Shown here piece after piece: positions 8,766 through 63,510 of a DNA stretch of 64,000 nt. Numbering within the stretch: position 1 is the stretch's first letter; each line of letters opens with the position of its first letter. Origin of the DNA: Onthophagus taurus (Eukaryota > Arthropoda > Insecta > Coleoptera > Scarabaeidae); assembly GCF_036711975.1 (NCBI RefSeq), contig NC_091966.1, forward strand, positions 1,991,501 to 2,055,500. Direction: 5' to 3'. The notes beneath the pieces were generated by a model that was given only the letters and a program-made list of their open reading frames with translations, was not told the origin of the DNA and did not search any database. A program made the translations under genes and the position numbers.

Positions 8766-11700
8766 ATCTCAAAAACTAAAAAATATTTTTGAAAACGGCC
8801 AAGTTCATTGAAAAGCTCATAATTTGATGTATAAATACTGATAATTTCATAACAACTAAAGAATTAGTTGATTTATTATGATTTTTTGAATTTAACCAAA
8901 GAAAATTGTTTACCTGCAAAAATGGGAAATGACAATTTTGTATTGAAATACTGATATCTCAAAAAGTAAAAGTTATTTTTAAAAGCGCCTTTTTTCATTG
9001 AAAAGCATATAATATGTTTCATAAATGCTGATAATTTCATTACCATTAAAGGATTTGTTGATTTATTATGATTTTTTGAATTTGATCGAAAAAAATTGTT
9101 TACCGTCGAAAATGAGAAATAACAATGTTGTGATGAGAAGGTGATATCTCCAAAACTAAAAGATATTTTTGAAAACGGCCAAGTTCATTTAAAAGCCCAT
9201 AATTTGTTGTATCAATACTGATGATTTGATAACGATTAAAGAATTAGTTGATTTATTATGATTTTTTGAATTTGACCGAAAAAAATTGTTTACCTTCTAA
9301 AATGAGAAATAACAATGTTGTATTGAGAAACTGATATCTCAAAAACTAAAAGATGTTTTTGAAAACGGCCAAGTTCATTGAAAAGCCCATAATTTGTTAT
9401 ATAAATACTGATAATTTCATAACGATTAAAGAATTAGTTGATTTATTATGATTTTTTGAATTTAACCAAAGAAAATTGTTTACCTTTAAAAATGAGAAAT
9501 ACCAATGTTGTATTGAGAAACTGATATCTCAAAAACTAAAAGATATTTTTGAAAACGGCCAAGTTCATTGAAAAGCCCATAATTTGTTATATAAATACTG
9601 ATAATTTCATAACGATTAAAGAATTAGTTGATTTATTATGATTTTTTGAATTTAACCAAAGAAAATTGTTTACCTTCAAAAATGAGAAATGAAAATGTTG
9701 TATTAAGAAACTGATATCTTAAAAACTAAAAGATATTTTTAAAATCCGCCTTTTTCATTGAAAAGCTCATAATTAGTTTTACAAATACCGATAATTTCAT
9801 AACGATTAAAGAATTAGTTGATTTATTATGATTTTTTGAATTTAACCAAAGAAAATTGTTTACTTTCAAAAATAAGAAATGACAATGTTGTATTGAGAAA
9901 CTGATATCTCAAAAACTAAAAGATATTTTCGAAAACGGCCAAGTTGATTGAAAAGCTCATAATTTGTTGTATAAATACTGATAATTTCATAACGACTAAA
10001 GAATTAGTTGATTTATTATGTTTTTTTGAATTTAACCAAAGAAAATTGTTTACCTTCAAAAATGAGAAATGAAAATGTTGTATTAAGAAACTGATATCTT
10101 AAAAACTAAAAGATATTTTTAAAATCCGCCTTTTTCATTGAAAAGCTCATAATTAGTTTTACAAATACCAATAATTTCATAACGATTAAAGAATTAGTTG
10201 ATTTATTATGATTTTTTGAATTTGACCGAAAAAAATTGTTTACCTTCTAAAATGAGAAATAACAATGTTGTATTGAGAAACTGATATCTCAAAAACTAAA
10301 AGATGTTTTTGAAAACGGCCAAGTTCATTGAAAAGCCCATAATTTGTTATATAAATACTGATAATTTCATAACGATTAAAGAATTAGTTGATTTATTATG
10401 ATTTTTTGAATTTAACCAAAGAAAATTGTTTACCTTTAAAAATGAGAAATACCAATGTTGTATTGAGAAACTGATATCTCAAAAACTAAAAGATATTTTT
10501 GAAAACGACCAAGTTCATTGAAAAGCCCATAATTTGTTGTATAAATACTGATGATTTCATAACTATTAAAGAATTAGTTGATTTATTATGATTTTTTGAA
10601 TTTAACCAAAGAAAATTGTTTATCTTCAAAAATGAGAAATACCAATGTTGTATTGAGAAACTAATATCTCAAAAACTAAAAGATGTTTTTGAAAACGGCC
10701 AAGTTCATTGAAAAGCCCATAATTTGTTATATAAATACTGATAATTTCATAACGATTAAAGAATTAGTTGATTTATTATGATTTTTTGAATTTAACCAAA
10801 GAAAATTGTTTACCTTCAAAAATGAGAAATGAAAATGTTGTATTAAGAAACTGATATCTTAAAAACTAAAAGATATTTTTAAAATCCGCCTTTTTCATTG
10901 AAAAGCTCATAATTAGTTTTACAAATACCGATAATTTCATAACGATTAAAGAATTAGTTGATTTATTATGATTTTTTGAATTTAACCAAAGAAAATTGTT
11001 TACTTTCAAAAATAAGAAATGACAATGTTGTATTGAGAAACTGATATCTCAAAAACTAAAAGATATTTTCGAAAACGGCCAAGTTGATTGAAAAGCTCAT
11101 AATTTGTTGTATAAATACTGATAATTTCATAACGACTAAAGAATTAGTTGATTTATTATGTTTTTTTGAATTTAACCAAAGAAAATTGTTTACCTTCAAA
11201 AATGAGAAATGAAAATGTTGTATTAAGAAACTGATATCTTAAAAACTAAAAGATATTTTTAAAATCCGCCTTTTTCATTGAAAAGCTCATAATTAGTTTT
11301 ACAAATACCAATAATTTCATAACGATTAAAGAATTAGTTGATTTATTATGATTTTTTGAATTTAACCAAAGAAAATTGTTTACTTTCAAAAATAAGTAAT
11401 GACAATGTTGTATTGAGAAACTGATATCTCAAAAACTAAAAGATATTTTCTAAAACGGCCAAGTTGATTGAAAAGCTCATAATTTGTTGTATAAATACTG
11501 ATAATTTCATAACGACTAAAGAATTAGTTGATTTATTATGTTTTTTTGAATTTAACCAAAGAAAATTGTTTACCTTCAAAAATGAGAAATGACAATGTTG
11601 TATTGAGAAACTGATATCTCAAAAACTAAAAGATATTTTCGAAAACGGCCAAGTTGATTGAAAAGCTCATAATTTGTTGTATAAATACTGATAATTTCAT

Positions 11701-13055
11701 AACGACTAAAGAATTAGTTGATTTATTATGTTTTTTTGAATTTAACCAAAGAAAATTGTTTACCTTCAAAAATGAGAAATGACAATGTTGTATTGAGAAA
11801 CTGATATCTCAAAAACTAAAAGATATTTTTGAAAACAGCCAAGTTCATTGAAAACCCCATAATTTGTTGTATAAATACTGATGACTTCATAACGATTAAA
11901 GAATTAGTTGATTTATTATGATTTTTTGAATTTAACCAAAGAAAATTGTTTACCTTCAGAAATGAGAAATGACAATGTTGTATTGAGAAACTGATATCTC
12001 AAAAAGTAAAAGTTATTTTTGAAAGCGCCTGTTTTCATTGAAAAGCTCATAATATGTTTCATAAATGCTGATAATTTGATTACCATTAAAGGATTAGTTG
12101 ATTTATTATGATCTTTTCAATTTATTCAAAGAAAATTGTTTACCTTCAAAAATGAGAAATGACAATGTTGTATTGAGAAACTGATATCTCAAAAACTAAA
12201 AGATATTTTTAAAAACGGTCAAGTTCATTTAAAAGCCCATAATTTGTTGTATAAATACTGATGATTTCATAACGATTAAAGAATTAGTTGATTTATTATG
12301 AATTTTTGAATTTAACCAAAGAAAATTGTTTACCTTCAGAAATGAGAAATGACAATGTTGTATTGAGAACCTGATATCTCAAAAACTAAAATATATTTTC
12401 GAGAATGGCCAAGTTCATTAAAAAGCTCATAATTTGTTTTATAAATGCTGATAATTTCATAACGACTAAAGAATTAGTTGATTTATTATGATTTTTTGAA
12501 TTTAACCAAAGAAAATTGTTTACCTTCAAAAATGAGAAATGACAATGTTGTATTGAGAAACTGATATCTCAAAAACTAAAAGATATTTTTGAAAACGGCC
12601 AAATTCATTGAAAAGCTCATAATTAGTTTTATAAATACCGATAATTTCATACCGATTAAAGAATTAGTTGATTTATTATGATTTTTTGAATTTAACCAAA
12701 GAAAATTGTTTACTTTCAGAAATGAGAAATGACAATGTTGTATTGAAAAACTGATATCTCAAAAACTAAAAGATATTTTGAAAACGGTTAAGTTCATTGA
12801 AAAGCTCATAATTTGGTGAGTAAATACTGATAATTTCATAACGATTAAAGGCTTAGTTGATTTATTATGATTTTTTGAATTTGACCGTAGAAAATTGTTT
12901 ACCTTCAAAAATGAGAAAAACAATGTTAGGTTTAAACATTAATATATCAAAAACTAAAAGATGTATTTGAAAGTGGCTTTTTTTATTGAAAAGCTTATAA
13001 TTTGTTTTATAATTTTTTGAATTTGATCGAAGAAAATTATTTACAGAAATTATTT
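8764..13055 (+). repeat. Satellite A, array A2 main part (190 bp unit)
   Basis: About 22 units with an exact 190 bp period in the middle (core starts near 9333, 9523, 9713). A variant reading tatcttaaaaactaaaag...aaaatccgcc recurs at about 9713, 10093, 10853 and 11233, so a block of about 1140 bp (six units) has been duplicated. The last units before 13055 are degenerate, as expected at an array edge. Confidence 0.97.
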
Positions 13056-15124: not shown

Positions 15125-15173
15125 ATCATAATGATAATGAAATCATAATGATTTTATGTATTAGGTTCAGCTG
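15125..15173 (+). repeat. Left 49 bp direct repeat enclosing satellite A3
   Basis: The same 49 bp occur at 20287-20335 with one difference (tattagg against tattggg). It contains atcataatgataatgaaatc and ends in ttcagctg. The array starts at the next base. Confidence 0.9.
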
Positions 15174-18100
15174 ATATTTTTGAAAACGGCCAAGTTCATT
15201 GAAAAGCTCATAATTTGTTGTATAAATACTGATAATTTCATAACGATTAAAGATTTAGTTGATTTATTATGATTTATTGAATTTAACCAAAGAAAATTGT
15301 TTACCTTTAGAAATGAGAAATAACAATGTTGGATTGAAAAACCGATATCTCAAAAACTAAAAGATATTTTTGAAAACGGTCAAGTTCATTTAAAAGCCCA
15401 TAATTTGTTGTATTAATACTGATGATTTCATAACGATTAAAGAATTAGTTAATTTATTATGATTTTTTGAATTTAACCAAAGAAAATTGTTTACCTTCAA
15501 AAATGAGAAATGACAATGTTGTATTGAGAAACTGATATCTCAAAAACTAAAAGATATTTTTGAAAACGGCCAAGTTCATTGAAAAGCTCATAATTTGTTG
15601 TATAAATACTGATAATTTCATAACGATTAAAGATTTAGTTGATTTATTATGATTTTTTGAATTTAACCAAAGAAAATTGTTTACCTTTAGAAATGAGAAA
15701 TAACAATGTTTGATTGAAAAACCGATATCTCAAAAACTAAAAGATATTTTTGAAAACGGTCAAGTTCATTTAAAAGCTCATAATTTGTTGTATTAATACT
15801 GATGATTTCATAACGATTAAAGAATTAGTTAATTTATTATGATTTTTTGAATTTAACCAAAGAAAATTGTTTACCTTCAAAAATGAGAAATGACAATGTT
15901 GTATTGAGAAACTGATATCTCAAAAACTAAAAGATATTTTTGAAAACGGCCAAGTTCATTGAAAAGCTCATAATTTGTTGTATAAATACTGATAATTTCA
16001 TAACGATTAAAGATTTAGTTGATTTATTATGATTTTTTGAATTTAACCAAAGAAAATTGTTTACCTTTAGAAATGAGAAATAACAATGTTGGATTGAAAA
16101 ACCGATATCTCAAAAACTAAAAGATATTTTTGAAAACGGTCAAGTTCAATTAAAAGCCCATAATTTGTTGTATTAATACTGATGATTTCATAACGATTAA
16201 AGAATTAGTTAATTTATTATGATTTTTTGAATTTAACCAAAGAAAATTGTTTACCTTCAAAAATGAGAAATGACAATGTTGTATTGAGAAACTGATATCT
16301 CAAAAACTAAAAGATATTTTTGAAAACGGCCAAGTTCATTGAAAAGCTCATAATTTGTTGTATAAATACTGATAATTTCATAACGATTAAAGATTTAGTT
16401 GATTTATTATGATTTATTGAATTTAACCAAAGAAAATTGTTTACCTTTAGAAATGAGAAATAACAATGTTGGATTGAAAAACCGATATCTCAAAAACTAA
16501 AAGATATTTTTGAAAACGGCCAAGTTCATTTAAAAGCCCATAATTTGTTGTATAAATACTGATGATTTCATAACGACTAAAGAATTAGTTGATTTATTAT
16601 GATTTTTTGAATTTAACCAAAGAAAATTGTTTACCTTCAAAAATGAGAAATGACAATGTTGTATTGAGAAACTGATATCTCAAAAACTAAAAGATATTTT
16701 TGAAAACGGCCAAGTTCATTGAAAAGCTCATAATTTGTTGTATAAATACTGATAATTTCATAACGATTAAAGATTTAGTTGATTTATTATGATTTATTGA
16801 ATTTAACCAAAGAAAATTGTTTACCTTTAGAAATGAGAAATAACAATGTTGGATTGAAAAACCGATATCTCAAAAACTAAAAGATATTTTTGAAAACGGT
16901 CAAGTTCATTTAAAAGCCCATAATTTGTTGTATTAATACTGATGATTTCATAACGATTAAAGAATTAGTTAATTTATTATGATTTTTTGAATTTAACCAA
17001 AGAAAATTGTTTACCTTCAAAAATGAGAAATGACAATGTTGTATTGAGAAACTGATATCTCAAAAACTAAAAGACATTTTTGAAAACGGCCAAGTTCATC
17101 GAAAAGCTCATAATTTGTTGTATAAATACTGATCATTTCATAACGATTAAAGATTTAGTTGATTTATTATGATTTTTTGAATTTAACCAAAGAAAATTGT
17201 TTACCTTCAAAAATGAGAAATGACAATGTTGTATTGAGAAACTGATATCTCAAAAACTAAAAGATATTTTTGAAAACAGCCAAGTTCATTGAAAAGCTCA
17301 TAATTTATTGTATAAATACTGATCATTTCATAACGATTAAAGATTTAGTTGATTTATTATGATTTTTTGAATTTAACCAAAGAAAATTGTTTACCTCCAA
17401 AAATGAGAAATGACAATGTTGTATTGAGAAACTGATATTTCAAAAACTAAAAGATATTTTTGAAAACGGCCAAGTTCATTTAAAAGCCCATAATTTGTTG
17501 TATAAATACTGATGATTTCATAACGATTAAAGAATTAGTTGATTTATTGCGATTTTTTGAATTTAACCAAAGAAAATTGTTTACATTAAAAAATGAGAAA
17601 TAACAATGTTGTATTGAAAAACCGATATCTCAAAAACTAAAAGATATTTTTGAAAACGGTCAAGTTCATTTAAAAGCCCATAATTTGTTGTATAAATACT
17701 GATGATTTCATAACGACTAAAGAATTAGTTGATTTAATATGATTTTTTGAATTTAACCAAAGAAAATTGTTTACCTTCAAAAATGAGAAATGACAATGTT
17801 GTATTGAGAAACTGATATCTCAAAAACTAAAAGACATTTTTGAAAACGGCCAAGTTCATCGAAAAGCTCATAATTTGTTGTATAAATACTGATCATTTCA
17901 TAACGATTAAAGATTTAGTTGATTTATTATGATTTTTTGAATTTAACCAAAGAAAATTGTTTACCTTCAAAAATGAGAAATGACAATGTTGTATTGAGAA
18001 ACTGATATCTCAAAAACTAAAAGATATTTTTGAAAACAGCCAAGTTCATTGAAAAGCTCATAATTTATTGTATAAATACTGATCATTTCATAACGATTAA

Positions 18101-20286
18101 AGATTTAGTTGATTTATTATGATTTTTTGAATTTAACCAAAGAAAATTGTTTACCTCCAAAAATGAGAAATGACAATGTTGTATTGAGAAACTGATATTT
18201 CAAAAACTAAAAGATATTTTTGAAAACGGCCAAGTTCATTTAAAAGCCCATAATTTGTTGTATAAATACTGATGATTTCATAACGATTAAAGAATTAGTT
18301 GATTTATTGCGATTTTTTGAATTTAACCAAAGAAAATTGTTTACATTAAAAAATGAGAAATAACAATGTTGTATTGAAAAACCGATATCTCAAAAACTAA
18401 AAGATATTTTTGAAAACGGTCAAGTTCATTTAAAAGCCCATAATTTGTTGTATAAATACTGATGATTTCATAACGACTAAAGAATTAGTTGATTTAATAT
18501 GATTTTTTGAATTTAACCAAAGAAAATTGTTTACCTTCAAAAATGAGAAATGACAATGTTGTATTGAGAAACTGATATTTCAAAAACTAAAAGATATTTT
18601 TGAAAACGGCCAAGTTCATTTAAAAGCCCATAATTTGTTGTATAAATACTGATGATTTCATAACGATTAAAGAATTAGTTGATTTATTGCGATTTTTTAA
18701 ATTTAACCAAAGAAAATTGTTTACCTTCAAAAATGAGAAATGACAATGTTGTATTGAGAAACTGATATCTCAAAAACTAAAAGATATTTTTGAAAACGGC
18801 CAAGTTCATTGAAAAGCTCATAATTTGTTGTATAAATACTGATAATTTCATAACGATTAAAGATTTAGTTGATTTATTATGATTTTTTGAATTTAACCAA
18901 AGAAAATTGTTTACCTTCAAAAATGAGAAATGACAATGTTGTATTGAGAAACTGATATCTCAAAAACTAAAAGATATTTTTGAAAACGGCCAAGTTCATT
19001 GAAAAGCTCATAATTTGTTGTATAAATACTGATGATTTCATAACGATTAAAGATTTAGTTGATTTATTATGATTTTTTGAATTTAACCAAAGAAAATTGT
19101 TTACCTTCAAAAATGAGAAATGACAATGTTGTATTGAGAAACTGATATTTCAAAAACTAAAAGATATTTTTGAAAACGGCCAAGTTCATTTAAAAGCCCA
19201 TAATTTGTTGTATAAATACTGATGATTTCATAACGATTAAAGAATTAGTTGATTTATTGCGATTTTTTAAATTTAACCAAAGAAAATTGTTTACCTTCAA
19301 AAATGAGAAATGACAATGTTGTATTGAGAAACTGATATCTCAAAAACTAAAAGATATTTTTGAAAACGGCCAAGTTCATTGAAAAGCTCATAATTTGTTG
19401 TATAAATACTGATGATTTCATAACGATTAAAGATTTAGTTGATTTATTATGATTTTTTGAATTTAACCAAAGAAAATTGTTTACCTTCAAAAATGAGAAA
19501 TGACAATGTTGTATTGAGAAACTGATATTTCAAAAACTAAAAGATATTTTTGAAAACGGCCAAGTTCATTTAAAAGCCCATAATTTGTTGTATAAATACT
19601 GATGATTTCATAACGATTAAAGAATTAGTTGATTTATTGCGATTTTTTAAATTTAACCAAAGAAAATTGTTTACCTTCAAAAATGAGAAATGACAATGTT
19701 GTATTGAGAAACTGATATCTCAAAAACTAAAAGATATTTTTGAAAACGGCCAAGTTCATTGAAAAGCTCATAATTTGTTGTATAAATACTGATGATTTCA
19801 TAACGATTAAAGATTTAGTTGATTTATTATGATTTTTTGAATTTAACCAAAGAAAATTGTTTACCTTCAAAAATGAGAAATGACAATGTTGTATTGAGAA
19901 ACTGATATTTCAAAAACTAAAAGATATTTTTGAAAACGGCCAAGTTCATTTAAAAGCCCATAATTTGTTGTATAAATACTGATGATTTCATAACGATTAA
20001 AGAATTAGTTGATTTATTGCGATTTTTTAAATTTAACCAAAGAAAATTGTTTACCTTCAAAAATGAGAAATGACAATGTTGTATTGAGAAACTGATATCT
20101 CAAAAACTAAAAGATATTTTTGAAAACGGCCAAGTTCATTGAAAAGCTCATAATTTGTTGTATAAATACTGATGATTTCATAACGATTAAAGATTTAGTT
20201 GATTTATTATGATTTTTTGAATTTAACCAAAGAAAATTGTTTACCTTCAAAAATGAGAAATGGCAATGTTGTATTGAGAAACTGAT
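15174..20286 (+). repeat. Satellite A, array A3 (190 bp unit, 380/760 bp higher order)
   Basis: About 27 units (5113 bp), the most uniform A array. Units alternate between a gaaaagctca type and a taaaagccca type, which gives a 380 bp dimer through most of the array. Between 17061 and 18580 a 760 bp four-unit block is repeated almost exactly; its marker aagacatttt is at 17071 and 17831. The array begins and ends in mid-unit, directly against the two 49 bp repeats. The high uniformity points to recent amplification. Confidence 0.97.
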
Positions 20287-20335
20287 ATCATAATGATAAT
20301 GAAATCATAATGATTTTATGTATTGGGTTCAGCTG
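20287..20335 (+). repeat. Right 49 bp direct repeat enclosing satellite A3
   Basis: Matches 15125-15173 at 48 of 49 positions. It lies between the last A3 unit and a LINE fragment. Confidence 0.9.
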
Positions 20336-20339
20336 TGAA

Positions 20340-23600: not shown

Positions 23601-23903
23601 TTAACCAACAACGACTGGGGCGTGATAAGCGGCGGCTACAGCTGGTGCTACTCCATGATAAGTTGATACAACTGGTGGAGTGTATGCAGAAACAACTGGT
23701 GCTGAATAAGGGGAAGAATAACTAGAATAAGCCAAAGGAGCTCCAACAAATGGTGCGGAATATGCAGCAGCTACAAGTCCTGGTTTTGGTTTGGGTTCGG
23801 GGGCGGCAACAGCCAAAGCCAAAAAGGCAGCGAATACAATCTTAAAAAAAAATAAAATAATAAATTTAATAATAATAAAAAAAGAACTTACAGCTTTGAA
23901 CAT
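23601..23903 (-). CDS. Cuticle-like APEPKPKPG protein with YSAP repeats
   Basis: Exon 1 23892-23903 (MFKA), intron 23841-23891 (51 bp), exon 2 23601-23840; 83 residues. The signal peptide MFKAIVFAAFLALAVA is followed by APEPKPKPGLVAAAYSAP and then repeats of the type YSSPYSAPVVSAYTPPVV, ending in STYHGVAPAVAAAYHAPVVVG. This is the main branch of the cluster, close to the proteins at 32801, 40386 and 50163. The intron is a multiple of three without stops, so an unspliced message would also read through (100 residues). Spliced sites match all paralogues and are preferred. TATA is at 23972-23977. A secreted structural cuticle role is inferred from composition. Confidence 0.88.
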   Translation of the reverse strand: MFKAVSSFFIIIKFIILFFFKIVFAAFLALAVAAPEPKPKPGLVAAAYSAPFVGAPLAYSSYSSPYSAPVVSAYTPPVVSTYHGVAPAVAAAYHAPVVVG

Positions 23904-26394: not shown

Positions 26395-27600
26395 TTAAAC
26401 TGTAACATCAGGTATATTTTCGGTTGATTCACATAAACTAGGCTCTTCGTCCCCACTGTCTTCTCGAGAATCGCCAGGAATATTATTGTTCTGAAATTTT
26501 CCCAATACATCTCTATAATAAGCCAAATTTTCTACCGCTCTCCAGTTCTTTCCATAATGTTTGGTTAACAAGTTATTTACATCTCTCATTTTCAGATCTT
26601 TTGGTTTCACTCCGGTAGGAATTTCTTTTGGCTGGATATTCATGACGGTTTGGTTTTTCCTAAAAACTCCTTTGAATGATCCGGTGTCTGAACGGTAAGA
26701 TAACTCACCTCCAATGGTGATGGCGTTTTTTTTGCCACGTCGTATAATATATCTCTTACATTGGTTAAATTTAAAATGCCACTGAGACACTGGCTTAAGG
26801 ATTTTTTGACCAGCACGTTTCCAATCACTATCGGGAACATCTTTTCCAAGTTTAAAAACAGTAGCATGTTCTTGAAAAATATTTATGTACTCTTCTGGCA
26901 TTACAATTACTTCTTTCTTTCTTATTTCTTTTTCGATAGTAGCAAAAACCCTGTCAGGTGGAATGTAGGAGTGCCCAACCACTGGGAATACCAGCTCGAT
27001 TGTTCTAATAGAACTGCTTATACTACTTAGCCATTTGAACAACATACATATCATAATGGTATTTTTATTTTGGCCGCCGCATCCATCGGCGACCAATCGA
27101 AGTGTATCTATTCCCTCTAAGTTACTATTGTTTAAAGTGTAAAAGACGCAGCTTGCGATTTCGTTGGCGCCCTTGGCATGTTCATCTTCAGTCCACGTGA
27201 AAATTTTAACATTATCTTTTGTTAACGGAGCATGTGAGTGCCCCACTACAGTAGTGAAGTTGTAAATGTACAGTTGTCTACTATAATAGGTACTTTGATC
27301 TGGTATTTTGGGCAATACCAAGTTTTTCTGCCAATCAAAAGAAATTGTCAGAAGGCCGTCCCGTTTCTCTTTTAGCTGTTCAAAAAATGCTTTGGCCCTG
27401 AGCTTATGTATTCGGTATTCTGTAGTTAGCACTGTTTTAATAGATGCAACCTTTTCATTTTTAATTTTTTCCCGGAGTTCAAGACACTTAGAGCAAACAT
27501 CGGTGCTAGGAGATCCAAAGCCGATGTTGAAGGAAGTATTAAAAATAAATCGAAAGTAGCTCTCTTTAATATCTAAAGGCTGTCTATTTGATTTGAATTT
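26395..27600 (-). CDS. DUF7869-like protein, 5' end not identified
   Basis: An open minus-strand frame of about 401 codons with stop at 26395-26397 and an upstream in-frame stop at 27601-27603. The first part reads SYFRFIFNTSFNIGFGSPST, then DVCSKCLEL. Next comes a linker rich in charged residues, and then ISFDWQKNLVLPKIPDQSTY, YYSRQLYIYNF, KGANEIASCVFYTL, LVADGCGGQNKN, VVGHSYIPPDRVFATIEKE and a basic C-terminal part. This order (FD..Q, RQL..YN, NEIASC, D.C.GGQNKN, GHS..P.D..F..IE) matches the insect DUF7869 family as I recall it. The family occurs in many copies, and I suspect it derives from a DDE-type DNA transposon. No start Met lies in frame near the 5' end, so an upstream exon or a lost start is likely. 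There are no internal stops over 1.2 kb, and a poly(A) signal lies just after the stop. Confidence 0.7.
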   Translation of the reverse strand, partial: KFKSNRQPLDIKESYFRFIFNTSFNIGFGSPSTDVCSKCLELREKIKNEKVASIKTVLTTEYRIHKLRAKAFFEQLKEKRDGLLTISFDWQKNLVLPKIPDQSTYYSRQLYIYNFTTVVGHSHAPLTKDNVKIFTWTEDEHAKGANEIASCVFYTLNNSNLEGIDTLRLVADGCGGQNKNTIMICMLFKWLSSISSSIRTIELVFPVVGHSYIPPDRVFATIEKEIRKKEVIVMPEEYINIFQEHATVFKLGKDVPDSDWKRAGQKILKPVSQWHFKFNQCKRYIIRRGKKNAITIGGELSYRSDTGSFKGVFRKNQTVMNIQPKEIPTGVKPKDLKMRDVNNLLTKHYGKNWRAVENLAYYRDVLGKFQNNNIPGDSREDSGDEEPSLCESTENIPDVTV

Positions 27601-32800: not shown

Positions 32801-33160
32801 ATGTACAAAGCTGTAAGTAAAATTTTTTTTATACAAATTTATTTATTTCGATTTAATTTTTGTTATATTTTTAAGATTGTATTCGCCGCCTTCTTGGCTT
32901 TGGCCGTTGCTGCCCCTGAACCAAAACCAAAACCAGGTCTTGTAGCTGCTGCTTACTCTGCTCCAGTTGTTGGTGCTCCATTGGCTTATTCTTCTCCAGT
33001 TGTATCCGCTTATTCCGCCCCGGTTGTTTCTGCTGGATACACTGGATACACTGCACCAGTTGTGTCTGGATACTCAGCTTACCACGGAGTTGCTCCAGCT
33101 GTAGCTTACCACGGAGGCGTCCCAGCAGTTGCTCCATACCACGCTTCAGTTGTTTATTAA
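32801..33160 (+). CDS. Cuticle-like APEPKPKPG protein
   Basis: Exon 1 32801-32812 (MYKA), intron 32813-32875 (63 bp), exon 2 32876-33160; 98 residues. The signal peptide MYKAIVFAAFLALAVA is followed by APEPKPKPGLVAAAYSAP, then VVGAPLAYSSPVVSAYSAP repeats, and a His/Val-rich tail with AYHGVAPAVAYHGGVPAV. Only this member has Tyr at position 2. The intron is in frame and free of stops, so an unspliced message would give 119 residues; splicing is preferred because sites and phase match all paralogues. It lies just before satellite B1. The minus-strand Q/L-rich frame at 32871-33197 is an antisense shadow. Confidence 0.88.
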   Translation: MYKAVSKIFFIQIYLFRFNFCYIFKIVFAAFLALAVAAPEPKPKPGLVAAAYSAPVVGAPLAYSSPVVSAYSAPVVSAGYTGYTAPVVSGYSAYHGVAPAVAYHGGVPAVAPYHASVVY

Positions 33161-40385: not shown

Positions 40386-40760
40386 TTAAGCTACAACAAC
40401 AGGTGAAGTATAAGCTGCGACAGCTGGAGCTACACCATGATATGAAGAAACAACTGGGGCAGTATAATGAGCAGCATAAGGAGCAACATAAGGAGCTGTA
40501 TATCCATAAGCACTATAAGCAGAGACGACTGGAGCTGAATAAGCTGCAGGTACAACTGGAGCTGAATAAGCCAAAGGAGTTCCAACAACCGGTGCGGTGT
40601 AGGCGGCAGCTACAAGTCCTGGTTTTGGTTTGGGTTCTGGGGCAGCAACAGCTAAAGCCAAGAAGGCAGCGAATACAATCTATAAAGAAAAAGCAAAAAT
40701 GTTAATATTGTATTTAAGATTCAAATCAAAATTGTCGAAGTAACTTACAACTTTGAACAT
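40386..40760 (-). CDS. Cuticle-like APEPKPKPG protein
   Basis: Exon 1 40749-40760 (MFKV), intron 40680-40748, exon 2 40386-40679; 101 residues, the longest of the family. The signal peptide MFKVIVFAAFLALAVA is followed by APEPKPKPGLVAAAYTAP, VVGTPLAYSAPVVPAAYSAP repeats, a YGYTAPYVAPYAAHYTAP middle and the SSYHGVAPAVAAYTSPVVVA tail. It is closest to the gene at 50163, and the similarity extends into the promoter and 5' UTR. It stands alone between satellite arrays B1 and B2. TATAAATA is at 40821-40828. Secreted structural role inferred. Confidence 0.88.
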
Positions 40761-40820
40761 TTTGATTTGTTTGTTGTTTGCTAGTTCAGTAAACTATGCA
40801 GCTCTTGGATTTAAATTCAA

Positions 40821-40876
40821 TATTTATACTAAAGTTGATGAGGAAAAAGTTTTTTATGCAACAAAAAGTGGGAGTG
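40821..40876 (-). promoter_or_regulatory. Core promoter of the 40386-40760 gene
   Basis: On the minus strand CACTCCCACTTTTTGT (40861-40876) and TATAAATA (40821-40828). The same arrangement, including a CATAAAAAACTT stretch in between, occurs at the 50163 gene. Confidence 0.7.
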
Positions 40877-41039
40877 AAAAAAAAGAAAGGTTGTCACTGG
40901 GAACCAAATTGGTTCAAGTTCAACCAGCGAAAACGTAAACGAAACAATGACGTGCTCCGAATAGAAAAGTAGTTATACTAATTTAAATTTATTAATCCTT
41001 ATTAAAACTTGTTTATATATTTTTACTTGTTTATTATTA

Positions 41040-44000: not shown

Positions 44001-45913
44001 GAACAAATATCGCTAGAATCATATATGATATATCATTTTCAAGCTTAAGGTGTGTACTTTATTTTATTTTTATAAATTATTGTTCTAAAATTATTGGTTT
44101 ATTAGACAAAAATATTTTAAGTTGATTAAGTTAAAAACAATAATTTTCAAAAAACGTCATGATATAACATTTCCCATATCTCATGAACACAAATGTCTAG
44201 AATGATATATGATACATCACTTTTAAGCTAAAAGTCGGTACTTTGTTTCATTTTTATAAATTATTGTTCTAAATTCGTCGGTTCAAATATGATACATCAT
44301 TTTCAAGCTAAAAGTGCCTACTTTATTTTATTTTTATAAATTGTTGTTCTAAATTTGTCGGTTCATTAGAGAAAAGTTCTCAAGTTTACGTTAAAAACAA
44401 CACATTTTCAAAAAGCGTGTTGATATTAAATTTCGATATCTCACGAACAAATATCGCTAGAATCATATATGATATATCATTTTCAAGCTTAAGGTGTGTA
44501 CTTTATTTTATTTTTATAAATTATTGTTCTAAAATTATTGGTTTATTAGACAAAAATATTTTAAGTTGATTAAGTTAAAAACAATAATTTTCAAAAAACG
44601 TCATGATATAACATTTCCCATATCTCATGAACACAAATGTCTAGAATGATATATGATACATCACTTTTAAGCTAAAAGTCGGTACTTTGTTTCATTTTTA
44701 TAAATTATTGTTTTAAATTTGTGGATTCATTAGACAAAAGTTCTCAAGTTTAGGTTAAAAACAACAAATTTTCAAAAAAGTCTTGATATTAAATTTCGAT
44801 ATCTCACGAACAGAAATCGCTAGAATCATATATGATATATCATTTTCAAGCTTAAAGTGTGCACTTTATTTTATTTTTATAAATTATTGTTCTAAAATCA
44901 TTGGTTTATTAGGCAAAAATATTTTAAATTGATTAAGTATAAGTTAAAAACAATAATTTTCAAAAAACGTCATGATATAACATTTCCCATATCTCATGAA
45001 CACATATGTCTAGAATCATATCTGATACACCATTTTCAAGCTAAAAGTGCCTACTTTATTTTATTTTTATGAATTATTGTTCTAAAATTATTGGTTTATT
45101 AGGCAAAAATATTTTAAATTGATTAAGTATAAGTTAAAAGCAATAATTTTCAAAAAACGTCATGATATAACATTTCCCATATCTCATGAACATATATGTC
45201 TAGAATCATATATGATATATCATTTTCAAGCTAAAAGTGCGTACTTCATTTTATTTTTATAAATTATTGCTCTAAATTTATTGGCTCATTAGGGAAAAAA
45301 TTCTCAAGTTTAGGTTAGAAATAAAAATCTCATATCATCTTGATATTAAGTTCCAGCATCTCACTAATAAATATCGCTAGAATCATATATGATATATCAT
45401 TTTCAAGCTAAAAGTGTGTACTTTATTTCTTTTTTATAAATTATTGTTCTAAATTTATTGGTTCAGTAGCAAAAATATCTCAAGTTAATTAAGTACAAAC
45501 AATAATATTCAAGAAACCTCATAATATAGAATTTCCGATATATCATGAACACATATGTTTAGAAGCATATATGATATATTATTTTCAAGCTAAAAGTGTG
45601 TACTTTATTTTATTTTTATGAATTATTATTCTAAATTTATTGGTTTATTACGGAAAAGTTCTCTATTTGATTAAGTTTAGGTTAAAAACAAAAAATTTAT
45701 AAAAAACATCGTGATATAAAACTTCCGATATCTTTCGAATAAATATAACTAGACTCATGATTGCTACATCATTTTCAAGCTAAAGGTATGTACTTTATTA
45801 TATGTGTAATGGGTTTATCATCCTCTATATACCTCGGAAAATACTCCGAGTTTTTGTGACTTAATAAAATTTTGTTCGTTATATCTCAAGTCCTTTGTAA
45901 CGAGGTTTTACTG
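41040..45913. mobile_element. Satellite B2 array inside Tc1/pogo-like terminal inverted repeats
   Basis: The left end CAGTAAAACCTCG at 41040-41052 continues as ATATAACGGA. The complement of the right end (to 45913) begins with the same 13 bases and continues as TTACAAAGGA, so about 20 of 23 terminal bases agree. TA precedes the left end (41038-41039); the right flank is AC, so the target duplication is not perfect. Such ends are typical of pogo/Tigger-like DNA transposons. No transposase is present: the inside is a satellite array with short flanks. Confidence 0.65.
41075..45815 (+). repeat. Satellite B, array B2 (about 180 bp unit)
   Basis: About 26 units in the same orientation as B1. Two unit types alternate, one with caagcttaaagtgtgtac and one with caagctaaaagtgcctac, giving a dimer of about 360 bp. 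A 444 bp segment (43841-44284) is repeated directly afterwards, out of unit register. Confidence 0.97.
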
Positions 45914-46467: not shown

Positions 46468-46520
46468 TACCCCACTTATCACAAAAAATCATCGTTTGCT
46501 ACACCTTGTCTTGGTATAAA
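46468..46520 (+). promoter_or_regulatory. Core promoter of the 46584-46910 gene
   Basis: TTACCCCACTTATC (46468-46480), TATAAATA from 46515, then catagtttactcaagtag near the expected transcription start (about 46546). Confidence 0.7.
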
Positions 46521-46583
46521 TATCGAAATCGAATCGAAACAAAGCATAGTTTACTCAAGTAGCAAACAATAAACAAACACAAA

Positions 46584-46910
46584 ATGTTCAAAGCTGTAAG
46601 TCTAAAATAAAATTAATTAAAATTTAATTTTAAAGTTTTTTGTGCTTTCTAGATTGTATTCGCTGCCATCTTGGCTTTGGCTGTTGCTGCTCCAGAACCA
46701 AAACCAAAACCTGGACTTGTAGCTGCCGCCTACACCGCACCAGTTGTTGGAGCTCCATTGGCTTATTCCGCTCCAGTCGTATCTGCATATTCAGCTCCGA
46801 TTGTATCTGCTTATAGCACTTATGGATATACATCTCCTTACGTTTCTACTTATCATGGTGTAGCTCCAGCTGTTGCTGCTGCTTATACTGCACCTCTTGT
46901 TGTAGCTTAA
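46584..46910 (+). CDS. Cuticle-like APEPKPKPG protein
   Basis: Exon 1 46584-46595 (MFKA), intron 46596-46652, exon 2 46653-46910; 89 residues. The signal peptide MFKAIVFAAILALAVA is followed by APEPKPKPGLVAAAYTAP and VVGAPLAYSAPVVSAYSAP repeats, then YGYTSPYVSTYHGVAPAV and an AAAYTAPLVVA end. It is very close to the proteins at 40386 and 50163. A poly(A) signal AATAAA is at 46936-46941. It is divergent from the 40386 gene across satellite B2 and convergent with the 50163 gene across satellite C1. The minus-strand frame at 46630-46833 is a shadow. Structural cuticle role inferred. Confidence 0.88.
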
Positions 46911-47079
46911 ATTTATTTTCTTATTTTGGATGGTTAATAAATATATGATGACACAATATAACATTAATAATTTTATTTTTCGTAAGCAAAGATTTTAACA
47001 ACCCAAATTTTACTTTATTTTATTTATTGAATTCATTTTCATGTCTTGGATGTGGTCTGAATGATACTTGACATTTAAA

Positions 47080-50065: not shown

Positions 50066-50162
50066 CGTAATGGTCAAGTTCAAAGAACATATAACAGTTT
50101 GTTAAAGAAAAGAATTTTTTTGGATCATCATCATTTATTCATTAATCATTTCAGGAAATAGT

Positions 50163-50507
50163 TTAGCCTACAACAACAGGTGCAGTATAAGCAGCAGCAA
50201 CACCAGGAGCTACTCCATGATAAGTAGAAACAACTGGGGCAGCATAAGGAGCAGTGTATCCATAAGTACTATAAGCAGAGACGACTGGAGCTGCATAAGC
50301 AGCAGATACAACCGGAGCAGAATAAGCCAAAGGAGCTCCAACAACTGGTGCGGTGTAAGCGGCAGCTACAAGTCCAGGTTTTGGTTTGGGTTCAGGGACA
50401 GCAACGGCTAAAGCCAAAAAGGCGGCGAATACAATCTGTAAAAAATATTAAATTTAAAATTAAATAAAATTAAGAAATGTTTACGAAAATCTTACAACTT
50501 TAAACAT
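50163..50507 (-). CDS. Cuticle-like PEPKPKPG protein
   Basis: Exon 1 50496-50507 (MFKV), intron 50436-50495, exon 2 50163-50435; 94 residues. The signal peptide MFKVIVFAAFLALAVA is followed by VPEPKPKPGLVAAAYTAP, with Val instead of Ala before the PEP motif, then VVGAPLAYSAPVVSAAYAAP repeats and YGYTAPYAAPVVSTYHGVAP, ending AAAYTAPVVVG. It shares promoter and 5' UTR sequence with the 40386 gene, so one is a recent duplicate of the other. It stands between satellite arrays C1 and C2. TATAAATA is at 50568-50575. Secreted structural role inferred. Confidence 0.88.
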
Positions 50508-50567
50508 TTTGATTTGTTTGTTGTTAGCTAGTTGAATAAACTATGCAAGCATTAGTTTTGATGTCAG

Positions 50568-50623
50568 TATTTATACTTACCAAATTACAGGAGAAGTTTT
50601 TTATGTAACAAAAAGTGGGAGTC
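50568..50623 (-). promoter_or_regulatory. Core promoter of the 50163-50507 gene
   Basis: On the minus strand GACTCCCACTTTTTGTTAC (about 50605-50623) and TATAAATA (50568-50575), the same spacing as at the 40386 gene. Confidence 0.7.
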
Positions 50624-51318
50624 GAAAAAAAAGAAACGAAAAGGTCGATTGTTACCATATCTAAAATAGTCCAAGTTCAACCGGCGAAAATGTAAACCAA
50701 ACGGCGACGTGTTTCGAATAAAAAAAAAGAGATAATGTTAATCAATCCAAAAGTATTAAGTACACAATTTCGATTTACGATATGTTTGACCAACAAACTA
50801 GAAACTATCAGAAAACACGATCGCCCTCGTGACCTCTACAAGTTACGACAGGACACTTTACGACGTGTCTACATCTGAAATTGTTAATTCAAATCCTTCA
50901 TAAAACCAGATAGATTAAGTTAACGAAATTGCTAACTTAACGAAGCTTGTGGGATTTCTCAAGAGGAAATAAACGAAAGTGTGAAAGCAAAAACGAAAAG
51001 TTAATAATGCGATGAGCGCACGTGCGATCTTACCCCTTCAATTTTAATTTCTTTCCGCGTTGAGCTGTGGCGATTAGAAAATGCGGTTTTCGATTTCCCG
51101 ACAATTACAGGCCCCGATGAACATAACTGGAAGGGTGCAAAAGTCAAAGGACTTCCGTAACAAGCTTTAGGTACCCGATGACATCGCAGTTCGAAACCCT
51201 TTTGAATTGCTTCCTGGGGTTGTTTACCGCGGTTTGCTTTCTCAATGCGCTGATATAATCGTTAACGAACAACTTGTACATTACCATATCAAAGATGTAA
51301 CAAACCAAATGGAATCTT
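50624..51318. other. Upstream spacer of the 50.2 kb gene
   Basis: The first 80 bp match the upstream region of the 40386 gene (gttcaacc-gcgaaaa, gacgtg, cgaata). The rest is unique and partly GC-richer (51020-51240). No gene is seen. Confidence 0.5.
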
Positions 51319-57134: not shown

Positions 57135-57174
57135 GCCCCTCCTTTTTTAAAAAAATTAACTACCAGTATAAATA
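57135..57174 (+). promoter_or_regulatory. Core promoter of the 57235-57572 gene
   Basis: GCCCCTCCTTTTTT (57135-57148), TATAAATA (57167-57174), then catagtttacagaactag near the expected start site (about 57197). Confidence 0.7.
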
Positions 57175-57234
57175 GGCGAATCAAAACTTGTTAAATCATA
57201 GTTTACAGAACTAGACTACAACAAAACCATCAAA

Positions 57235-57572
57235 ATGTTCAAAGCTGTAAGTCACAAGATTAATTTCTTTTTAAATTATTTATTTATTTTGTTTTTTAGA
57301 TTGTATTTGCTGCCATTTTGGCCTTAGCCGTTGCTGCTCCAGAACCAAAACCAAAACCGGGAGTAATTGCAACATCTTACACTGCTGGAGTTGTTGGAAC
57401 ACCATATTACACAGCCCCCGTTGTTTCTGCTTATTCATCCCCCGTTGCATCTGCATACTCATCTCCAGTTGTATCTGCATACCCATCTCCAGTTGTATCT
57501 GCTTACAGAGCTCCAGTTGTATCTACATATGGCGCAGTTCCAACTTATGGACATTCCGTGGTTGTAGCTTAA
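57235..57572 (+). CDS. Cuticle-like protein with tandem PVVSAYSS repeats
   Basis: Exon 1 57235-57246 (MFKA), intron 57247-57299, exon 2 57300-57572; 94 residues. The signal peptide MFKAIVFAAILALAVA is followed by APEPKPKPGVIATSYTAG, then six tandem copies of an eight-residue unit of the form (A/S)PVVSAY(S/P/R) (57416-57520), and a short GAVPTYGHSVVVA end. The clean in-frame 24 bp tandem repeats show how length varies in this family. A poly(A) signal AATAAA is at 57611-57616. It is convergent with the 59244 gene across satellite D1. The frame in the other plus phase (57367-57567) and the antisense frame are shadows. Confidence 0.88.
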
Positions 57573-57739
57573 TTAATTTTGTGACGATTTGGCAATTACA
57601 CTTTATTACGAATAAAATAAACAATTTAATTGTGAAAAAAATATTTTTTTTAATGTTTTTATCGGGTAAATTAGATCAATCCCATCAAATTATAATATTT
57701 ATAAGTAAATGGTATCGTTATGCTAAAAGATAGTAGTCC

Positions 57740-59105
57740 TCCACTTATTCGACGAGATACCTCAATTACGTTGAGTTAAGAAACGAATTATATCTTAAAT
57801 TAAAGCTTGAAATGTCCTCTTTAAAATAAAGTGTTATAAACTACATGTTAATAATACAGTCTCGGAGGAATACAAATTTGAAATTTGTTGTAAAGTGAGT
57901 AATTGTCGTTTTTTAATATGTAACTTCGAAGATTAATTTCTCATTTATTTCTAAGAGTTAAGAAATAATTTATATATTAAATGAAAGCTTGAAATGTCCT
58001 CTTTAAGATTATGTAATATAACCTATATGTTAATGATCTAGTTTCGGAAGAATACAAATTTGAAATTTGTTGTAAAGGGAGTAATTATCGTTTTTTAACG
58101 GCTAACTTCAAAGATTCCTTTTTTATTTGTTTCTAAGAGTTAAGAATTAATTTATATCTTAAATGAAAGATTGAAATGTCCTCTTTAAGATTATGTAATA
58201 TAACCTATATGTTAATGATCTAGTTTCGGAGGAATACAAATTTGAAATTTATTGAAAAGTGAGTAATTGGCGTTTTTAATATCTATCTTTAAAGAATCTG
58301 TTCTCATTTATTACTAAGTATTAAGAAATGATTGGTATCTTAAATGAAAGCTTGAAATGTCCTCTTTAATATAAAATAACACATCCTGTATGTTAATAAT
58401 ATAGTTTCGCAGGAATACTAATTTAAACTTGTTTCAAGTTAAATTAACTTTTTTTATACATCTAACTTTGAAAAATCACATCTCATTAATTCCTGAGAGT
58501 TAACAAACCATTTTTATCTTAAATTAAAGCTTAAAATGTCCTCTTTAAGATAAAGTATCACAACCTATATGTTAATAAAATGGTTTCGGAGAAATGAAAA
58601 TTTTAAATTTGCTCTAAACCAAATCGAGATCTTTTTTGCATATCTAACTTTGAAAATTCATTTCTCATTTATATCTAGGAGTTAAGAAATAACTTATATC
58701 TTAAATAAAAACTTGAAATGTCCTCTTTAAGATAAAGTAATACAATCTGTATGTTAATAATACAACTTCGGAGGCATACAAGTTTAAAACTTGTTCCAAT
58801 TAAATGGACGCTTTTATTTATACGTCTCATTTATTTCTGAGAGTTAAGAAACAATTTAAATTTTAAATGAAAGCTTAAAATCTCCTCTTTAAGATAAAGT
58901 AATATAACCCACTTGTTACTAAATGATTTCTGAGAAATAACAAATTTTAAATTTGTTGCAAATTAATTTGATGCATTTTTTTAGATATCTAAATTTAAAG
59001 ATTCATTTCTCATTTATTTCTAAGAATTAAGAAACGATTTTTATCTTAAATGAAAGCTTGAAATGTCCACTTTAAGATAAAGCGACTTAATGATATAATT
59101 TTTTG
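57740..59105 (-). repeat. Satellite D, array D1 (about 180 bp unit)
   Basis: About seven to eight units, recognised on this strand by agcttgaaatgtcctcttta and tttcggaggaatacaaattt. It is in reverse orientation to D2 and to arrays A, B and C, judged by the shared boxes. Confidence 0.95.
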
Positions 59106-59243
59106 TTCAAATTTTTTTCTAGGGTATTATAAAAAAACACTTTAATAAATTAAATAAGTTTTATTGAAATCCACATTTTTTTTATCCAAGCAGTCCAAAG
59201 AAAAGTTAATTTAGTATTTCCAATTTCCAAATATACTTATTAT

Positions 59244-59527
59244 TTAATAATAATAGGGATAATCATAAGCATAGGGATAAGCAGCATAGGCATACGGAGA
59301 ATAAGCCGAAACGAGTGGTGATGAATAAGAGGGATAAGAAGCAACATAAGGAGCACTGTAGGCTGAAACAACTGGGCTGACGACGGCCGGTGCAAAAAGT
59401 CCTGGTTTAGGCTTAGGTTCTGGAGCAGCTACGGCGAAAGCCAAGATAGCAGCGAATACGATCTAAATAAAATTAAAACATTAAAAATATATTAAAAAAG
59501 TAATGATAAACTTACAGCTTTGAACAT
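59244..59527 (-). CDS. Tyr-rich cuticle-like APEPKPKPG protein
   Basis: Exon 1 59516-59527 (MFKA), intron 59463-59515, exon 2 59244-59462; 76 residues. The signal peptide MFKAIVFAAILAFAVA is followed by APEPKPKPGLFAPAVV, a short repeat section (SPVVSAYSAPYVASYPSYSS) and a Tyr-rich end (YAYAAYPYAYDYPYYY). It links the repeat branch and the Tyr-rich branch. It lies at the centre of the inverted D1/D2 satellite pair. The TATA box is at 59586-59593 and TTCTCCCACCGATTC lies behind it. Structural cuticle role inferred. Confidence 0.88.
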
Positions 59528-59585
59528 CTTTGTTGTGATTTGATGGTTTCGAATCAAACTGTGACTTTGTTCGATGATATCTTCG

Positions 59586-59625
59586 TTTTTATAGTAAAAT
59601 TTTTGCTGAATCGGTGGGAGAACTC
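59586..59625 (-). promoter_or_regulatory. Core promoter of the 59244-59527 gene
   Basis: On the minus strand GAGTTCTCCCACCG (about 59612-59625) and TATAAAAA (59586-59593), 59 bp before the ATG. Confidence 0.65.
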
Positions 59626-60589: not shown

Positions 60590-63510
60590 TTAAGTTATAT
60601 CACATTAATTTAAGATATAAATCGTTTCTTAACTCTTAGCAATAAATGAGAAGCGATATTTCAAAGATAAACATTTAAATTGCATCAATTTACTTTACAA
60701 TAAATTTCAAATTTGTATTCCTCCCAAACTATATTACCAACATATTACTATGTCTTGAAGAGGACATTTCAAGCTGTCGTTTAAGATATAAATCATTTTT
60801 TAACTCTTGGAAATATATGAGAAGTCAGTCTTCAAAATTTAAAATTTGTATTCCTTCGAAACTAGATTATTAACATATAGGTTATATTATATAATCTTAA
60901 AGAGGACATTTCAAGCTTTCATTTAAGAAAAAAATCGTTTCCTAATTCTTAAAAATAAATGAGAAATGAATCTTTAAATTTAGATATCAAAAAGGAGTCC
61001 ATTTAATTGAAACAAGTTTTAAGTTTGTATGCCTCCGAAATTGTATTATTAACATACAAGTTGTATTACTTTATCTTAAAGAGGGCATTTCAAGCTTTTA
61101 TTTAAGATATAAGTTATTTCTTAACTCCTAGGTATAAATGAGAAATGAATTTTCAAAGTTAGATATGCAGAAAAGGTCTGAATTTGATTTAGAGCAAATT
61201 TAAAATTTTCATATCTCCGAAACCATTTTATTAACATATAGGTTGCGATACTTTATCTTAAAGAGGACATTTTAAGCTTTCATTTAAGATAAAAATGGTT
61301 TGTTAACTCTCAGAAATTAATGAGATATGATTTTTTAAAGTTAGATGTTCAAAAAAAGTGTTAATTTAACTTAAAACAAGTTTAAATTTGTATTCCTCCG
61401 AAACTATATTATTAACATACAGGATGTGTTACTTTATATTAAAGAGGACATTTCAAGCTTTCATTTAAGATACAAATCGTTTCTTAACACTTAGTAATAA
61501 ATGAGAACAGATTCTTTAAAGATATATATTAAAAACGCCCAGTTACTTACTTTACAACAAATTTCAAATTTGTATTCCTCCGAAACTATATTATTAACAT
61601 ATAGTTTATGTTATATAATCTTAAAGAGGACATTTCAAGCTTCCATTTATGATAAAAATCGTTTCTTAATTCTTAAAAGTAAATGAGATATGAATCTTTC
61701 AATTTAGATATCTAAAAAATGCATCAAATTAATTTGCAACAAATTTCAAATTTGTTATTTCTCATAAATCATTTAGTAACTAGTAGGTTATATTACCTTA
61801 TCTTAAAGAGGACATTTTAAGCTTTCATTTAAAATTTAAATTGTTTCTTAACTCTCAAAAATAAATGAAATGTGATTTTTCAAAATTAGAAATTCAAAAA
61901 AGCGTCCATTTAATTGAAACAAGTTTTAAATTTGTATACCTCCGAAATTGTATTATTAACATACAGGTTGTATTACTTTATCTTAAAGAGGACATTTCAA
62001 GCTTTTATTTAAGATATAAGTTATTTCTTAACTCCTAGATATAAATGAGAAATGAATTTTCAAACTTAGATATGCAAAAAAGGTCTGAATTTGATTTAGA
62101 GCAAATTTAAAATTTTCATATCTCCGAAACCATTTTATTAACATATAGGTTGTGATACTTTATCTTAAAGAGGACATTTTAAGCTTTCATTTAAGATAAA
62201 AATGGTTTGTTAACTCTCAGAAATTAATGAGATATGATTTTTTAAAGTTAGATGTTCAAAAAAAATGTTAATTTAACTTGAAACAAGTTTCAATTTGTAT
62301 TCTTCCGAAACTATATTATTAACATACAGGATGTGTTATTTTATATTAAAGAGGACATTTCAAGCTTTCATTTAAGATACAAATCGTTTCTTAACACTTA
62401 GTAATAAATGAGAACAGATTCTTTAAAGATATATATTAAAAACGCCCAGTTACTTACTTTACAACAAATTTCAAATTTGTATTCCTCCGAAACTAGATTA
62501 TTAACATATAGTTTATGTTATATAATCTTAAAGAGGACATTTCAAGCTTCCATTTAAGATAAAAATCGTTTCTTAACTCTTAAAAATAAATGAGAAATGA
62601 ATCTTTAAATTTAGATATCTAAAGAAATGCATCAAATTAATTTGCAACAAATTTCAAATTTGTTATTTCTCATAAATCATTTAATAACAAGTAGGTTATA
62701 TTACCTTATCTTAAAGAGGACATTTTAAGCTTTCATTTCAAATTTAAATTGTTTCTTAACTCTCAAAAATAAATAAAATATGATTTTTCAAAATTAGAAA
62801 TTCAAAAAAGCGTCCATTTAATTGGAACAAGTTTTAAATTTGTATGCCTCCGAAATTGTATTATTAACATACAGGTTGAATTACTTTATCTCAAAGAGGA
62901 CATTTCAAGCTTTTATTTAAGATATAAGTTATTTCTTAACTCCTAGATATAAATGAGAAATAAATTTTCAAAATTAGATATGCAAAAAAAGTCTCAATTT
63001 GGTTTAGAACAAATTTAATATTTTCATATCTCCGAAACCATTTTATTAACATATAGGTTGTGATACTTTATCTTAAAGAGGACATTTTAAGCTTTCATAT
63101 AAGATAAAAATGCTTTGTTAACTCTTAGAAATTAAGGAGATGTGATTTTTCAAAGTTAGATGTTCAAAAAAAGTGTTAATTTAACTTGAAACAAGTTTAA
63201 ATTTGTATTCCTCCGAAACTATATTATTAACATACAGGATGTGTTACTTTATATTAAAGAGGACATTTCAAGCTTTCATTTAAGATACAAATCATTTCTT
63301 AACACTTAGTAATAAATGAGAACAGATTCTTTAAAGATAGATATTAAAAACGCCCAATTACTTACTTTACAACAAATTTCAAATTTGTATTCCTCCGAAA
63401 CTACATTATTAACATAGAGGTTGTGTTATATAATCTTAAAGAGGATATTTCAAGCATTCATTTAAGATATACATCGTTTCTTAACTCCTGGAAATACATC
63501 AGAAGTGACT
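60590..63510 (+). repeat. Satellite D, array D2 (about 181 bp unit, 907 bp higher order)
   Basis: About 16 units marked by aagaggacatttcaagcttt and tattcctccgaaac. Five unit types follow one another in fixed order: the marker gtctgaatttgatttag recurs at about 61175 and 62082, and in altered form at 62991, which gives a block of about 907 bp. It is the reverse complement of D1. Confidence 0.95.

Follow-up and report, generated by a model that had tools for sequence, protein, structure and literature searches.

Satellite arrays of the window and their box pair

The stretch under study, referred to as the window, comprises 64,000 nucleotides (nt) of contig NC_091966.1 of the scarabaeid beetle Onthophagus taurus (assembly GCF_036711975.1, positions 1,991,501 to 2,055,500 of the forward strand), and holds nine tandem arrays of satellite DNA with units of 179-190 base pairs (bp). 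The A arrays are A0 (515-4390, plus strand, units of ~189 bp), A1 (8764-13012, plus strand, 190 bp), whose start is an ATATCTC adjoining an (ATT)n run, and A2 (15173-20289, plus strand, 190 bp), which is the family A of a first-pass annotation of this DNA. They are followed by B1 (33440-38852, plus strand, units of 180 bp with a 360-bp higher-order period), B2 (41078-45803, plus strand, ~180-190 bp), C1 (47306-50049, plus strand, ~179 bp), C2 (51571-55760, plus strand, ~179 bp with a 495-bp higher-order period), D1 (57773-59082, minus strand, 182 bp) and D2 (60835-63532, plus strand, 182 bp). A0 had been overlooked by that annotation; it is a subfamily of A, A and A0 being similar along the unit in a gapped pairwise comparison (0 of 150 shuffles as high).

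Two short boxes had been described as shared by the four families, 42 nt apart in A, B and C and 57 nt apart in D: box 1, starting with ATATCTC, and box 2, CATTnnnAAGC or close to it. The pair quoted for each family is indeed found at 15535/15577 (A), 36570/36612 (B), 49552/49594 (C) and 62118/62175 (D). In the A unit, box 1 (15535-15547, plus strand) is the left half of a palindromic core, and box 2 reads CATTGAAAAGC (15577-15587, plus strand). The seven A, B and C arrays contain 133 [AG]TATCTC sites, with [CAT]ATTnnnAAGC at exactly 42 nt in 106 of them, at 41 nt in one, and none within 75 nt in the other 26; where a box 2 lies that close, its distance is thus exactly 42 nt in 106 of 107 cases. 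The pair at 42 nt is present at 17 of the 19 sites of A0 (two with none), 12 of the 18 of A1 (one at 41 nt, five with none), 17 of the 20 of A2 (three with none), 19 of the 24 of B1 (five with none), 16 of the 22 of B2 (six with none), 10 of the 12 of C1 (two with none) and 15 of the 18 of C2 (three with none). Outside the arrays, the window has a single pair at this distance, in a lone A-type monomer near 7240 (core at 7240-7292, plus strand) in which the first letters of box 2 are altered.

The spacing extends well beyond the window. Over the genome searched (291 megabases in 33 contigs), ATATCTCnnnAAC followed by a CATTnnnAAGC starting 27-57 nt downstream occurs 1030 times (479 + 551; 0 and 0 for the reversed control), and 962 of these pairs are at 42 nt, 51 at 43-57 nt and 17 at 27-41 nt, counts that refer to units, many of them within one array. 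In 38 arrays retrieved with box-free queries, all units show the 42-nt distance in 35 (70 of the 73 units), and relatives of B have both boxes at 42 nt in 14 of 14 units from seven arrays. The span is unchanged in length more often than other 42-nt stretches of these units are on average, at percentile 73 for C, 71 for A and 100 for B. Chance likeness was evaluated by taking the 64-nt box region from each family and sliding it along the other families, on both strands and at ~360-380 offsets. With A-A0 set aside, the box register was the single best in seven of the ten comparisons among A, A0, B and C (A-C, B-C, C-B, B-A, C-A, A0-B and A0-C), shared first place for A-B and B-A0, and came second for C-A0. 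It was never among the four best in the eight comparisons with D.

Family D stands apart as far as the boxes are concerned. Its two arrays are without a pair at 42 nt (0 of 5 sites); the fixed spacing is a property of A, B and C. ATATCTC is absent from D1 and occurs four times in 60700-63800, one of the sites (63738) being past the end of D2. The D consensus reads TATTCCTCCGAAAC, and box 2 of the quoted D unit is one base shorter. Moreover, box 1 is not retained in 13 relatives of D elsewhere, most of which keep TTTAAGCTTTAATTTAA-like and TGATTTTT-like words downstream. With no 42-nt pair at the D sites and no box 1 in these relatives, the pair spaced 57 nt at 62118 is a local likeness.

Short genes, alike and in both orientations, lie between the arrays (23601-23903, 32801-33160, 40359-40968, 46514-46951, 50128-50725, 57165-57476 and 59296-59566). 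We take them to be cuticle-protein-like from their AYSAPVV repeats; they gave one weak Pfam match, below its cut-off. D1 and D2 are oppositely oriented around one of them. Other coding features are an open frame matching DUF7869 (26395-27432, minus strand; PF25273, 1.3e-9) and another with a reverse transcriptase match under the curated cut-off (7498-8382; PF00078, 2.1e-5). Elsewhere in the genome, a 152-bp satellite completely fills two of 17 sampled 10-kb stretches (L011:1-10000 and L023:1-10000), and is probably the major satellite of this genome.

Conservation and likeness along the units

Per-position conservation, which the first-pass annotation had proposed as a check, was evaluated in arrays fetched by genome searches with box-free parts of the units. 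These cover 51 of a much larger number of places, with scores for the 40 best first-look candidates of each DNA search. A first C-type profile was dropped, its loci having been picked by the core pattern, and was replaced by the box-free one. In 21 C-type arrays, with a mean major-base frequency of 0.877, box 1 reaches 0.945 (96th percentile of same-length windows), the right arm of the palindrome 0.969 (98th), box 2 0.924 (73rd) and the stretch between them 0.805 (10th). The corresponding values for 10 A-type arrays, with a mean of 0.823, are 0.919 (90th), 0.900 (74th), 0.886 (69th) and 0.817 (45th). The core is therefore conserved in arrays that were found without it; box 1 and the right arm stand out across these arrays, and box 2 does so mildly. 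Within the window arrays the boxes are not consistently prominent, with percentiles for box 1 and box 2 of 95 and 58 in A, 43 and 95 in B, 19 and 50 in C, and 59 and 92 in D, an inconsistency that would be expected if homogenisation hides selection.

The consensus units of A and C share a third block, TTATGATTTTTT, beginning 112 nt from box 1 in each of them; in the arrays retrieved with box-free queries it is as conserved as box 1 and the right arm. The top 13-nt window of the A-type and of the C-type arrays holds this same word; when windows of other lengths are used, the C-type arrays have the palindrome or a word close to it on top.

The units of the four families had been considered unlike outside the boxes, a statement that holds for B, is doubtful for A and C, and fails for C and D. 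C and D are related along the unit, outside the boxes too: among all rotations and both strands their best whole-unit alignment is in register, with a score of 106, the next peaks (92.5) being shoulders 10-12 nt off, and downstream of box 2 the optimum is in register in both profile tests. In addition, 23 monomers from 10 loci chosen by box or core patterns were used to build a C model, which gives in-register scores of 10.8 bits for the D consensus and 12.9 bits for the A consensus, neither of them reached in 100 shuffles. Together with the position of the third block, the score of A suggests that A and C are probably linked by descent, a link clouded by reverse-strand likeness. As for B, the box region ties it to A, C and D in the profile comparison, and we infer its place in the same superfamily by descent through this region alone. 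In the second profile test, 12 of the loci added to the A and C profiles had been selected through core or A-type core words and are biased in favor of these; the conservation percentiles given above do not include them. A first gapped pairwise comparison was not relied on, its gap cost being too cheap for AT-rich DNA; in it, shuffles as high numbered, of 150, one for A-C, seven for A0-C, one for B-C, two for C-D and at least 27 for the other plus-strand pairs.

Palindromic core, transposon ends and array edges

Box 1 forms the left half of the palindrome TATCTCAAGAACTAnTTGAGATA. Its core frame, TATCTCnnnAACTAnnnGAGATA, occurs 1525 + 1704 times genome-wide (0 and 0 for the reversed control). 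The 100 core matches listed include C-like arrays as well as plus/minus pairs, 12 in number, of which 11 are spaced 1.5-3.3 kb and one 7.1 kb. Six stretches with such core pairs (L026-L031) provided both ends in five cases and one end in the other, all starting with TACAG(A/G)GTG and with the core 34 nt inside. Open pieces between the inverted ends match the DDE_3 transposase profile (E 0.038) and helix-turn-helix (HTH) profiles (E 0.028 and 0.054), all below curated cut-offs, and contain the word DGAPAH, presumably typical of Tc1/mariner transposases. The six stretches are probable mariner-like transposons, their TACAGGGTG ends carrying the satellite core. Given the presence of the core in inverted ends together with transposase-like open pieces, it is common to the satellites and to a probable mariner-like transposon. 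Six variants of the core string had no occurrence in the literature text searched. Similar ATATCTC strings may occur in other insects.

Additional occurrences of box 1 were also considered. The C unit contains an inverted copy near 104 nt, on the minus strand, which is the best other match in C (4.7 versus a mean of -20.0, standard deviation 8.6); it was set aside as a common feature, A, B and D being without the same. A general enrichment of box 1 was likewise discarded: in 17 random 10-kb stretches TATCTCnnnAA[CT] was found 36 times versus 3.6 expected, 28 of these sites coming from L009 alone and the other eight from six loci. L009 holds, at 482-5629, an array with 303- and 456-bp periods and a repeated TATCTC(A/C)nTAATTATTG.

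Of the 51 genome-wide pairs with a spacing above 42 nt, coordinates place 50 at 43 nt, and 24 of the 26 with letters shown are of a type such as ATATCTCGATAACGGTTAGAGATAAATAAGTCGAGTTTGGGTTCATTTTAAAGC, whose spacer is unlike that of A, B or C. L021 (322-7832, ~7.5 kb across), a repeat related to this 43-nt group and present among the random stretches sampled, has inverted ends at 322-961 and 7176-7832 that are 90% identical and are made, over 640 bp, of tandem 117-bp units carrying GTTTGGACTCATTTTAAAGG. It is common in the genome, with 1994 first-look candidates, the best 40 of the 1994 scoring 96-100% identical. Comparison of its units with the C model gives a weak match around box 2, of 3.9 bits at most, with 1.5 bits as the maximum of 360 shuffles; the A, B and D models are not matched, and shuffles reach 5.7 (A) and 6.9 bits (B). 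Its likeness to the C satellite may thus serve as a weak lead only. The interior of L021 contains a Tc1-like transposase frame (PF01498, 3.5e-24) between inverted repeats of its own.

Regarding array edges, A2 is flanked by a 49-bp direct repeat (15125-15173 and 20287-20335, both plus strand) whose copies agree at 48 of 49 positions. Because a 24-base piece of this repeat occurs genome-wide at these two places only, it looks like a target duplicated on insertion of the array. Such a clean duplication was seen for A2 only, one of 19 arrays compared (nine plus 10 with both edges placed); C2, L121, L135 and L137 show partial flank likeness not abutting both edges. A first flank comparison of 20 arrays was excluded, array sequence having been included in it. 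The array edges are not concentrated in the core (six of 45 versus 6.4 expected, 45 of the 58 edges of 29 arrays being placeable, and array edges only being considered). Four of 22 array starts lie within 4 nt of box 1, an observation made afterwards and to be read knowing that local alignments tend to start at conserved blocks.

Proposed origin and reading of the boxes

With moderate confidence, we favor the explanation that a single satellite-DNA superfamily, old and dispersed, has diverged into the branches represented by these arrays; the core, box 2 and the third block would be ancestral and the slow parts of the unit kept by selection. The ancestral unit, of ~180-190 bp, would have carried the palindromic core TATCTCAAGAACTAnTTGAGATAT, with box 1 as its left half, a box 2 CATTnnnAAGC 42 nt from the core start, and TTATGATTTTTT at 112 nt. 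Once this unit had spread, amplification and homogenisation array by array may have changed its remaining parts fast, while the core and the third block would be slow to change owing to something that reads them. Forty-two nucleotides correspond to four turns of B-DNA, and a 25-bp palindrome suggests a dimeric protein; therefore, a putative dimeric DNA-binding protein might recognize the palindrome, box 2 being at a distance of four helical turns. This is the most plausible way in which the box palindrome would be read. Of the two readings offered by the first-pass annotation, a shared protein-binding or processing site and common descent with selection on the boxes, the second is the better one, with box 1 and the right arm conserved and box 2 mildly so.

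Several observations weigh against this explanation. When the boxes are masked, the C model gives A 3.8 bits in a colinear match (two of 100 shuffles as high), and it scores A0 at 17.3 bits on the minus strand. Downstream of box 2 the A-C comparison peaks on the minus strand (27.8 versus 15.4 in register), over the whole unit reverse-strand likeness competes with the register (91.0 versus 90.5), and the in-register A-C rank is 28th and 23rd in two of the profile tests. A and D are in register in one profile test and not in the second. For B, the profile tests show nothing in register with A or C beyond the box region, and the B-C whole-unit comparison only ties. Conservation of box 2 (73rd and 69th percentile) and, for A and C, length constancy of the 42-nt span (71st-73rd percentile) are mild. 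The palindrome shows no convincing compensatory change, its pairs being mostly invariant or broken in 56 distinct cores from 29 of the 32 loci scanned, in a count that itself leans towards pairing through a loose right-arm filter and the choice of 11 of the 32 loci by box or core pattern.

The location of the core TATCTCnnnAACTAnnnGAGATA 34 nt inside mariner-like inverted ends, next to DDE_3 (E 0.038) and HTH (E 0.028) matches below cut-offs, is consistent with a two-box module originating in DNA transposons, where it would be the transposase-binding module of inverted ends, with the satellites arising by tandem amplification of such ends. The further group with its pair at 43 nt, the tandem 117-bp units in the inverted ends of L021 and the precedent of a Tribolium castaneum satellite located, in the part of its description available, in transposon ends (PMC10218199) point in the same direction. 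Nonetheless, it is the core alone that is common to the mariner-like ends, with no CATTnnnAAGC at 42 nt in the end stretch examined, the L021 match is weak and limited to the C model (3.9 bits), and none of the loci read has a transposon copy with a full satellite unit, and so we consider this origin rather unlikely. Separate recruitment or retention of unrelated satellites for a protein-binding site, without common descent, as in the CENP-B box idea, would account for an A-B-C likeness that is centered on the boxes, with nothing else of B in register, and for a pair at 43 nt with a different spacer in the further group. On the contrary, the kinship of C and D over the unit and the third block at equal distance in A and C point to descent, and likeness to the CENP-B box is at chance except for box 2 of A, which makes this alternative an unlikely one. 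A literal CENP-B box is not borne out: the best matches to the human sequence are 12 (A), 10 (B), nine (C) and 10 (D) of 17 positions, versus random means of 9.7-9.9, and since the random mean is ~9.8 of 17 over a 180-bp unit, 10-12 of 17 is by itself weak evidence for CENP-B. The match of 12 in A, located in box 2, is the sole unusual one (six of 200 shuffles as high). A protein other than CENP-B may bind the boxes.

Neutral likeness, the boxes being AT-rich remnants of common ancestry without selection, would fit their inconsistent conservation in the window arrays, the mildly special character of box 2 and of the 42-nt length, and the lack of compensatory change in the palindrome; the conservation of the core in independent arrays retrieved without it (96th and 90th percentile) speaks against this reading, and we consider it very unlikely. 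Finally, the boxes might act at the RNA level, for example as processing or small-RNA sites; tapiR is reportedly a satellite-derived PIWI-interacting RNA (piRNA) in mosquitoes. Here, the window has no Rfam match (gathering threshold, E up to 1) and the consensus folds are ordinary (z from -1.85 to +1.37), which makes such an action highly improbable. A broader proposal, which we regard as a long shot, is that the 25-bp palindrome with CATTnnnAAGC four turns away may be a general recognition site in this genome, bound by transposases in two or more kinds of transposon with inverted ends, and kept in dispersed gene-near satellites owing to binding by a host protein, perhaps a domesticated transposase.

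Returning to the diverged superfamily with selected slow parts, its interest lies in that satellite DNA is expected to drift freely, and that dispersed, diverged arrays with equal blocks and spacing provide near-independent replicates for testing selection. The core would also be a concrete bait for a reader protein, and its sharing with transposon ends bears on the origins of satellites.

A close precedent is found in the nematode genus Meloidogyne, for which the available portions of the reports describe divergent satellites (32-64% identity) of one genome sharing two short boxes, Box 1 being CENP-B box-like, with junctions at the boxes and ~180-bp units common (PMC3694981, PMC9673304). As far as those portions describe it, the arrangement in A, B and C, not in D, resembles that system in the short boxes conserved between otherwise divergent satellites and in the ~180-bp units. 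It differs from it in the AT-rich palindrome without CENP-B likeness beyond chance, the fixed 42-nt offset of box 2, array edges that are not at the boxes, and a core also present in transposon ends. SF-1 of Adalia bipunctata is, in turn, a satellite superfamily with families of 174-179 bp grouped by common ancestry, and is similar, by description and not by sequence, in comprising several near-180-bp families, while a shared box or fixed spacing is not described in the available part of that report (PMC11394905). TCsat23 of Tribolium castaneum is comparable in that its unit, according to the accessible text, also forms short tandem arrays within the inverted ends of a DNA transposon, Rehavkus-1_TC (PMC10218199). 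It differs in that here short blocks, and not the whole unit, are shared with transposon-like repeats. In the main text of the Tenebrio molitor satellitome paper, the terms 'motif' and 'superfamil' are absent (PMC13192020). Divergent satellites with two boxes are thus a known arrangement, while the AT-rich palindrome, the pair fixed at 42 nt and the presence of the core in transposon ends are new here.

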